From Clostridia bacterium (GTDB lineage Bacteria > Bacillota > Clostridia > Oscillospirales > Acutalibacteraceae): a stretch of DNA of 64,000 bases. The notes beneath the pieces were generated by a model. It did not search any database, was not told the origin of the DNA, and was given only the letters and a program-made list of their open reading frames with translations. Location: the NCBI GenBank assembly GCA_017415025.1, contig JAFQJH010000006.1, positions 33,860 to 97,859 of the forward strand, written 5' to 3'. Made by a program: the position numbers and the translations under genes. This document shows positions 40,751-54,309 of the stretch, piece by piece (within the stretch, counting starts at the first letter, position 1; every line of letters starts with the position of its first letter).

Positions 40751-40806
40751 GCCTCCCTTGTGTAAAGGGAGGTGGGTTTTGCGAAGCAAAAGTCGGAGGG
40801 ATTGTT
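40751..40806 (+). repeat. Left repeat of the DUF559 cassette
   Basis: Built from a hairpin (CCTCCCTT/AAGGGAGG), a second small palindrome (TTTTGCGAAGCAAAA) and the end GGAGGGATTGTT. Same layout as 54255-54309 and the inverted partner 41150-41195. Confidence 0.85.
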
Positions 40807-41202
40807 ATGGAAAGAATACATAATAAAGAACTCGTTTCAACAGCGAAAATGCTTCGTAAAAATATGACAAAAGAAGAAAAGCATCTGTGGTATGATTTTT
40901 TGAGGACATATCCGATAAGGTTTATACGTCAAAAAATAATCGGACGATATATAGTTGATTTTTATTGCGCAAAAGCTAAGTTGGTTATAGAACTTGACGG
41001 TTCACAGCATTATGAAGAAAAAGGTATGAAAAATGATGCTGAACGGACGAAGTTTCTCGAAACATACGGATTAAAAATTGTGCGAATACCAAACACGGAA
41101 ATAAACAACAATTTTGACGGTGTTTGTGAATATATCAATAAAAATATAAAACAATCCCTCAGTCCTTCGGACAGCTCCCTTTACACAAGGGAGCCACGAT
41201 GA
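40807..41202 (+). CDS. DUF559 / Vsr-like endonuclease in a repeat-bounded cassette
   Basis: 131 residues. The N terminus (LVSTAKMLRKNMTKEEKHLW) is the DUF559 helix. RQKIIGRYIVDFYCAKAKLVIELDGSQH contains the PD-(D/E)xK-like core, with Asp in VDFY and the ELDGSQH strand, as in very-short-patch-repair type nucleases. ATG 40807 directly follows the left repeat, whose GGAGGG end forms the ribosome binding site. The last ~17 codons (SLSPSDSSLYTREPR) are read from the inverted right repeat and the stop lies seven bases beyond it. It sits between rsfS and leuS, which are normally adjacent. DNA nicking or repeat mobilisation is inferred; the family has no firm function. Confidence 0.85.
   Translation: MERIHNKELVSTAKMLRKNMTKEEKHLWYDFLRTYPIRFIRQKIIGRYIVDFYCAKAKLVIELDGSQHYEEKGMKNDAERTKFLETYGLKIVRIPNTEINNNFDGVCEYINKNIKQSLSPSDSSLYTREPR
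41150..41195 (-). repeat. Right, inverted repeat of the DUF559 cassette
   Basis: Reads AACAATCCCTC inward and ends CAAGGGAGCC; on the minus strand it matches the hairpin and the GAGGGATTGTT end of 40751-40806, with a different middle palindrome (TCCGAAGGA). Confidence 0.85.
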
Positions 41203-53884: not shown

Positions 53885-54158
53885 GCAAATTTTAATTTGT
53901 CGGGATATTTTGCTTTTGCTGTTGCTAACTTTGAGCTGTCGCCCCTGAAAGGGGAGATGTCACGAAGTGACAGAGGGGTTCGTTGCAAAGCAACGAGGGA
54001 AACAAGATATAACAAAGAACTTTTTTGTCGCTGACGCTCCACCCATCCGCCCTGTCGGGCACCTTCCCTTTCAGAGAAGGTTGCTTGTCTTTAGCTTGTT
54101 TCAAATTTAAAAATATATCGACAACCCCCAACTCATCCGGCAGACTAAATTTTGTTTT
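53885..54158. repeat. Composite repeat region: fragment of the 160-bp repeat interrupted by another element
   Basis: GCAAATTTTAATTTGTCGGG (from ~53886) matches an end of the 160-bp family. It is followed by an element with CCCCTGAAAGGGG (~53941), TGTCACGAAGTGACA, TTGCAAAGCAA and a distal CCTTTCAGAGAAGG (~54070). Nested insertion of one repeat type in another is inferred. Confidence 0.6.
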
Positions 54159-54254: not shown

Positions 54255-54309
54255 GCCCTCCTTGCCTAAAGGAGGGTGGCGCGGCGTAAGCCGTGACGGG
54301 AGGATTGTT
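54255..54309 (+). repeat. Solo copy of the DUF559-cassette repeat family
   Basis: Same order as 40751-40806: CCCTCCTT/AAGGAGGG hairpin, GCGGCGTAAGCCGTG palindrome, then GGGAGGATTGTT. No nuclease gene follows. Confidence 0.75.

Follow-up and report, generated by a model that had tools for sequence, protein, structure and literature searches.

The gene that lies between rsfS and leuS in the window (the whole stretch of DNA analysed, 64,000 nucleotides from a Clostridia bacterium) raises the question of why a small predicted nuclease should be framed by palindromic repeats, and whether gene and repeats together form a mobile unit, as a preliminary description had proposed. The open reading frame encodes a DUF559 protein (PF04480; E 8e-32, 109.8 bits against a curated cut-off of 20.6), and Pfam identifies the neighbouring products as RsfS and leucyl-tRNA synthetase, which places the unit where that description had put it. 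The features are as follows.

40751-40773, + strand: left end, hairpin 1, with a pyrimidine 5' arm and a purine 3' arm (arm pairing, folding)
40777-40791, + strand: left end, hairpin 2, core TTTTGC-GAA-GCAAAA (read from the sequence, folding)
40795-40806, + strand: left end, inner motif GGAGGGATTGTT, within which the nuclease gene probably has its ribosome-binding site
40807-41202, + strand: DUF559 (PF04480) nuclease gene, 131 amino acids, the stop being counted in the coordinates (profile match; relatives with solved structure)
41150-41160, - strand: right end (inverted), inner motif AACAATCCCTC, part of the translated protein tail
41162-41172, - strand: right end, hairpin 2, GTCC-TTC-GGAC (folding)
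41174-41194, - strand: right end, hairpin 1 (arm pairing, folding)
54255-54309, + strand: solo repeat, built as at the window locus, without a nuclease gene (pattern, folding)

Three elements make up the full repeat: the outer hairpin, whose 5' arm is of pyrimidines, the second hairpin and the inner motif, the last of which appears, with moderate support, to be a copy of the arm. At the window locus (L001) the repeat arms show 92% pairing over 25 nt and 83% over 18 nt, both repeat halves form much more stable folds than their dinucleotide shuffles do (z -4.8 and -5.0), and the flanks match each other as inverted copies (score 41) rather than direct ones (16), in agreement with the earlier claim that the gene stands between inverted palindromic repeats. 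The left motif GGAGGGATTGTT runs straight into the ATG at 40807, so that the left repeat supplies the likely ribosome-binding site, and the inverted right repeat is indeed translated as the protein tail, the stop codon (TGA, 41200-41202) lying just outside it. The tail common to five relatives (L035, L037, L039, L040 and L061), ...LSQLR, is encoded by the right repeat, and their stop codon falls inside its second hairpin, so that the read-through in the window to seven bases outside the repeat looks like a local, derived state. The gene was said to be exactly bounded by its repeats; this holds at the window locus but not at two further loci of the same genome (L003 and L004), where a longer piece has been inserted.

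The repeat pattern occurs four times in the window against 0.25 expected, one hairpin accounting for two of the four, once on each strand. At 54255-54309 the solo repeat has the layout attributed to it, without a nuclease, folds with a z of -4.0, and carries on its 3' side a vestige of the opposite inner motif (ACAATCC). Just upstream of it, at 53914-54124 (G000:C2:87773-87983), lie more repeats, of the L003 and L004 types, and the gap before 54255 reads as a mosaic of several repeat families. Rfam gave no match to the window at gathering score.

The genome from which the window comes (G000; 28 contigs, 84% complete) has four DUF559 matches, L001-L004, and all four genes are flanked on both sides, by eye, by hairpin repeats that differ in sequence. 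The flanks of L002 are inverted copies (inverted 43, direct 17), those of L003 are a direct pair (score 96 against 29 inverted), and those of L004 hold no shared copy (22 and 22), the repeats differing between the sides. Across this genome the hairpin pattern gave 17 forward and 19 reverse matches, compared with 2 and 2 for the reversed pattern; as it is nearly palindromic, a single hairpin is often counted on both strands.

We then have to ask how general this arrangement is. Within the family, 120 genomes were sampled, of which 35 had a DUF559 match, and 58 loci were analysed, 33 from searches and 25 of 26 taken as stretches (L243, from another family, was excluded); the places left out were mostly fragments, contig-end pieces and weak matches, and 54 of the 58 loci had enough flank. 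For other phyla, contigs were scanned with two peptide patterns and the best 80 of 573 confirmed relatives were used, which makes this an uneven sample. Taking a match score of at least 30 in either orientation as a shared flank repeat, we found one in 39 of 54 family loci, compared with 61 of 324 mismatched pairs (between genomes), and in 48 of 75 loci from other phyla, compared with 49 of 450 mismatched pairs. The distal windows (0 of 31 and 0 of 66, respectively) and the flanks of rsfS (0 of 25, both orientations), controls that are often coding or short gaps rather than matched intergenic stretches, shared none; mismatched pairs exceed distal windows because repeats from different genomes are alike. 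Hairpins were present on both sides in 35/54 family loci (distal windows 2/31) and 46/76 loci from other phyla (0/66), and on at least one side in 52/54 (6/31) and 63/76 (8/66). No hairpin above threshold stood on either side of 2/54 family loci and 13/76 loci from other phyla, 12 of these 13 being from Bacteroidota, and 6 of the 13 still share inverted flank sequence. The expectation that DUF559 genes would be accompanied by flank repeats of such build was thus borne out for most loci, in the family and in other phyla.

With the groups sorted from record titles and loci counted at an inverted match score of at least 30, the arrangement was found in Bacteroidota (20/40), Chloroflexota (5/8), Gammaproteobacteria (3/6), Patescibacteria (3/5), Alphaproteobacteria (4/4), Cyanobacteria (2/3) and Desulfo/Syntropho groups (3/3), in none of one Kryptoniota locus (0/1), and in all five single loci from Myxococcota, Kiritimatiellae, Brocadiaceae, Binatia and an unclassified proteobacterium; the flanks of L197 have an inverted score of 30. 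In a plasmid collection it was found in 6 of 11 loci, drawn from 35 records with a match. Two phage records had DUF559 matches, and the one read (L075) has clear repeats upstream only. In the phylum of the window genome, 105 of 398 genomes matched PF04480, many of the matches being weak and within long open frames; the 30 loci of this set stand outside the repeat tests.

Consistent embedding between inverted copies, for which the preliminary description suggested a check, was not upheld. Among the loci with a shared flank repeat, inversion gives the better match in 22/39 of the family and 32/48 from other phyla, and the direct orientation in 17/39 and 16/48, and because palindromes match themselves both ways a shared flank repeat does not amount to inversion. 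Long direct copies (score at least 80) surround the gene in 13/54 family loci, 8/75 loci from other phyla and no control, and long inverted copies in 1/54 and 8/75. In Neisseria gonorrhoeae (L318) the DUF559 gene lies between long direct copies (score 160 vs 20) of a repeat that includes a CTCTCCC hairpin. At L225, L240, L152, L157 and L175 the direct copies are very long (direct scores 239-287), which would fit a unit that inserted into a repeat and duplicated it, or a duplication of the unit in tandem.

The type of hairpin is common to most of these loci. The best hairpin at ≤150 nt has a pyrimidine 5' arm in 66 family flanks, a purine one in 7 and a mixed one in 17, with none above threshold in 22; for other phyla the figures are 102, 0, 10 and 44, respectively. 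Since the order of the arms in a palindrome is equal on both strands, this bias describes the hairpin type and not an orientation towards the gene. Of the two sides of a hairpin, the one towards the gene has the closer copy of the arm in 97 cases and the outer one in 57, with 19 ties. Outside the family the common unit is CCCTCACCC-CCCTCTCCC-loop-GGGAGAGGG (L182 and L200, for example). The Escherichia coli DUF559 gene (L339), which we take to be ycjD, is followed by an CCCTCACCCCAACCCTCTCCC-type hairpin and directly preceded by a palindrome that is different and longer.

Repeat and protein vary together. Flank similarity between genomes rises with protein identity (Spearman 0.41, reached in 0 of 500 permutations), and flanks were closer to those of the nearest protein in another genome than to those of a paralogue in the same genome in 48 triples against 12 (31 loci), the triples sharing loci and hence not being independent. 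On these comparisons the repeat type follows the nuclease rather than the host genome. When 10 genomes, no two from one genus, were compared pairwise, the most similar DUF559 genes surpassed LeuS in identity for 30 of 45 pairs, 12 of them with a lead of more than 10 points, although the choice of the best of several genes favours DUF559; despite that advantage, the values of 87% for DUF559 and 60% for LeuS in the pairs G000-G092 and G004-G107 point to horizontal movement. The window's subfamily (best E ≤1e-42, our own cut) is present in 19 genomes, of which 13 had a repeat excess (at least 6), against 8 of 101 others, with the genes' own repeats counted in. After subtraction of four hits per gene, an excess remained in 8/19 subfamily genomes (p 0.0005) and in 9/35 genomes with any DUF559 (p 0.012), compared in each case with 6/85 family genomes without a DUF559 hit, G014 being one of the six.

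Several residues of the enzyme are nearly invariant. Residues R17, E24, Q42, D51, E62, D64, H68, D77 and R80 are retained in all or all but one of the aligned loci, and D51, E62 and D64 (137 of 138 loci) and H68 (138 of 138) are the presumed active-site residues. The closest solved chains by profile are 3hrl, an 'endonuclease-like protein' (E 3e-35), and 3r3p, a 'mobile intron protein' (E 5e-5) that is presumably I-Bth0305I, with PvuRts1I as third solved relative (E 0.011). PMC3943268 describes I-Bth0305I as an EDxHD homing endonuclease. The nuclease is probably a distant relative of the Vsr/EDxHD branch of PD-(D/E)XK enzymes. In Caulobacter a Vsr-like protein with a DUF559 domain (VsrA) is needed for a response to DNA damage, according to PMC12907096. 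The window protein matched DUF559 and weaker models only, among them weak matches to defence and restriction models, and gave no Y1 match; a RAYT as the gene inside the window repeats was accordingly ruled out.

We consider it somewhat better than an even chance (a probability of about 0.55) that the locus is a compact selfish or homing-type unit, consisting of a stand-alone DUF559 nuclease between REP-like repeats that are inverted at the window locus and direct or mixed at others. This reading builds on the association of gene and repeat, the common hairpin type, the co-variation of repeat and protein, the excess identity between genera, the near-invariant residues, and the occupied and unoccupied sites presented below. 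The long direct copies around the gene fit it too, as a unit that inserts into a repeat already in place, or next to one, would be expected to lie between such copies. From these observations we infer repeat recognition, cleavage and nuclease-driven spread: the nuclease would recognize its own repeat, as duplex or extruded hairpin, and would cut or nick in or beside it; repair via the repeat sequence would place copies of the unit with its gene, or of the repeats alone, at new sites and in new genomes; and loss of the gene would leave dimers, single repeats or single hairpins.

In order to compare sites, relatives were read at the window locus and at the other loci of this genome. Of 60 genomes, 57 have rsfS; 27 of the 30 loci retrieved were parsed, one of them the window's own. 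The rsfS-leuS gap could be read through, with no DUF559 gene, in 24 of the 26 relatives; L086 has inverted repeats around a run of N, in L092 leuS was not reached, and L083 has a lone outer hairpin. The gene-less gaps that the preliminary description asked about exist in relatives; none of those read is an exact empty site for the window locus. At the L002 site G000, G129 and G121 have the gene; G122, G131 and G123 show a lone outer hairpin instead, G125 and G127 lack any repeat, and G133 carries a repeat of another type, the right flank alone being alignable for G121, G131, G123, G133, G125 and G127. The L003 site holds a single whole repeat in G122 and G133 and none in G125, and G000 and G129 read repeat, gene, right end, repeat, with outer repeats that are direct copies. 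At the L004 site neither gene nor repeat stands at the junction in G129, G122, G131, G123, G125 and G121; there is another repeat frame in G133, and unrelated sequence in G127 and G130. Occupied and unoccupied sites of this kind indicate that units are gained or lost, and for the gene-less, repeat-bearing sites at L002 and L003 loss would explain the pattern as well as gain. There was no clear target-site duplication, a single 9-nt AT-rich overlap being seen at L004. A Sinorhizobium meliloti pair, Ak57 and K101, was discarded as an empty site, because Ak57 keeps a truncated gene.

Solo repeats tend to be parts of something larger. Nine of 11 aligned solo loci in the window genome clearly share outer sequence beyond the dimer (L006 shares it partly, and L015 is cut by a contig end), and all 20 stretches read from G129, G121 and G131, chosen by their match to the left end of L002, lie in larger frames; in G098 the hairpin is present in 12 of 13 stretches, 10 of these in frames. 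Copy number is therefore no proof of DUF559-driven movement, and most solo dimers read in the genus need not be MITE derivatives moved by DUF559. In keeping with the proposal of MITE-like derivatives, minimal gene-less dimers with both ends do exist (L316 and L317, in G098). L008-L017 and L285-L304 are repeat dimers within a larger multi-copy frame whose ends lie near AATTTGTCGGG and CCCGACAAATT, and the intergenic stretches of the genus are repeat mosaics. A search of nine genomes for Y1 transposases gave a match in eight, above the cut-off in seven, with one match in the window genome. Three loci of the 16 Y1 places listed were read, 'RAYT-like' being a name given from sequence, and had no such repeats beside them (inverted scores 18, 16 and 22). 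L354 (G000:C11), RAYT-like as well, has an open frame of 179 codons for a Y1 transposase, and repeats of this sort do not adjoin it.

An unlikely alternative, and the one that survives best, is that an older REP family is moved by other means, by a RAYT in trans or within the larger frames, and that DUF559 is a homing-type guest for which the repeats are landing sites and recombination homology. The single whole repeat at the L003 site in G122 and G133, set against the doubled one around the gene in G000 and G129, is consistent with such a guest, as are the single outer hairpin at the L002 site in three relatives and the long direct copies in 13/54 and 8/75 loci. RAYT-like genes in this genome and its relatives, and solo dimers that ride in other frames, would supply the other means of movement. 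However, a guest of this kind does not account well for a repeat type that tracks the protein and not the genome, for the lack of such flank repeats at the three RAYT-like loci read out of the 16 Y1 places, or for the L004 site, which has neither gene nor repeat in six relatives.

It is improbable that DUF559 is a repair or defence nuclease of the host, acting in Vsr-like patch repair, and that the hairpins serve simply as terminators, attenuators or mRNA-stability elements. Many genes have hairpins next to them, the protein has its weak matches to defence and restriction models, and a Vsr-like role has been proposed for VsrA of Caulobacter, which contains DUF559 (PMC12907096). Terminators, however, would leave unexplained a repeat common to both sides, one hairpin type both up- and downstream, the further copies in the genome and the co-variation with the protein. 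A scan of seven neighbouring proteins, one of them matching nothing, found no cytosine methylase, which, according to PMC12907096, need not strictly be linked for Vsr-like function. Most improbable of all is a passive association, in which repeats and dispensable genes simply accumulate in the same intergenic stretches, with no action of one upon the other, because, although the intergenic stretches of the genus are repeat mosaics, the controls described above (often coding or short gaps rather than matched intergenic stretches) shared no flank repeat and protein and repeat co-vary.

The reading as a compact unit spread by its own nuclease has to be set against the direct copies in many loci, including that of Neisseria, the hairpin-less loci in other phyla (13/76), the repeat excess in 6/85 genomes without DUF559, the moderate support for the inner motif as an arm copy, the solo repeats in larger frames, the RAYT-like genes in this genome and others, and the lack of a clear target-site duplication. 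As relatives in many bacterial groups have like hairpins, the repeats may belong to a nuclease-driven mobile element. The wider proposition, that stand-alone DUF559 genes and palindromes whose 5' arm is of pyrimidines (CCTCACCC..CCCTCTCC-loop-GGAGAGGG and related forms) make up a bacteria-wide mobile superfamily in which a Vsr/EDxHD-type nuclease replaces the HUH transposase, and of which many orphan palindromes would be footprints, is one that we put forward tentatively, at slightly less than even odds.

Interspersed palindromes fill intergenic space in many bacteria, and some families have no known moving enzyme, as PMC3733652 relates for the CGTC REPs. That the sequence of a nuclease from a family named for its 'unknown function' tracks such repeats points to a likely role for DUF559 and to a candidate partner for the repeats, and the question can be put to the test with a single small protein and the repeat that flanks its gene. 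In line with the preliminary description, no account of a DUF559-repeat element was found in the literature searched, a search outside which most subscription papers and bioRxiv lie; none of the papers in it that name DUF559 appears to be about repeats.

Among known systems, the EDxHD/Vsr-like homing endonucleases such as I-Bth0305I are probably linked to the window nuclease by a distant sequence relation (3r3p, E 5e-5), but the window gene does not lie in an intron, an intein or a conserved gene; it stands between repeats in intergenic sequence, and its product is a single small domain. Vsr mismatch endonucleases and Caulobacter VsrA belong to the same broad enzyme class, VsrA having a DUF559 domain according to PMC12907096; in contrast to these, the window gene has no adjacent cytosine methylase and stands within a repeat-bounded unit. 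MITEs resemble the short gene-less dimers in being present in several copies, but here there is no clear target-site duplication and the presumed parent encodes no known transposase.

The CGTC-tagged REPs (Di Nocera 2013, PMC3733652) resemble the repeats described here in being short palindromes with a predominance of inverted dimers, for which, according to that paper, there is apparently no dedicated transposase. They are defined by a CGTC tag, an 8-9 bp stem with A-T at its foot and a CCA tail, whereas the window copies read CGAC and AGTC, their second stems are shorter and the A-T at the stem foot is missing. Membership of the CGTC REPs was therefore dropped, the window copies having no CGTC and most repeats of other phyla being built otherwise; some other copies do read CGTC, so that the likeness serves as a lead only. 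With REPs and their RAYT or TnpA-REP genes (REPtrons), finally, the unit shares a gene placed between palindromic repeats that also occur alone and as inverted dimers, and the flanking by inverted palindromes that characterizes REP/RAYT is found at the window locus, but not at all relatives. Unlike in REP/RAYT, there is no GTAG at the foot of the palindrome in either window repeat, the unit has two hairpins and the flanking copies may be direct. The enzyme is a DUF559 protein and not a Y1/HUH transposase, and if the reading as a nuclease-borne unit is true it would represent a non-HUH way of spreading REP-like DNA.
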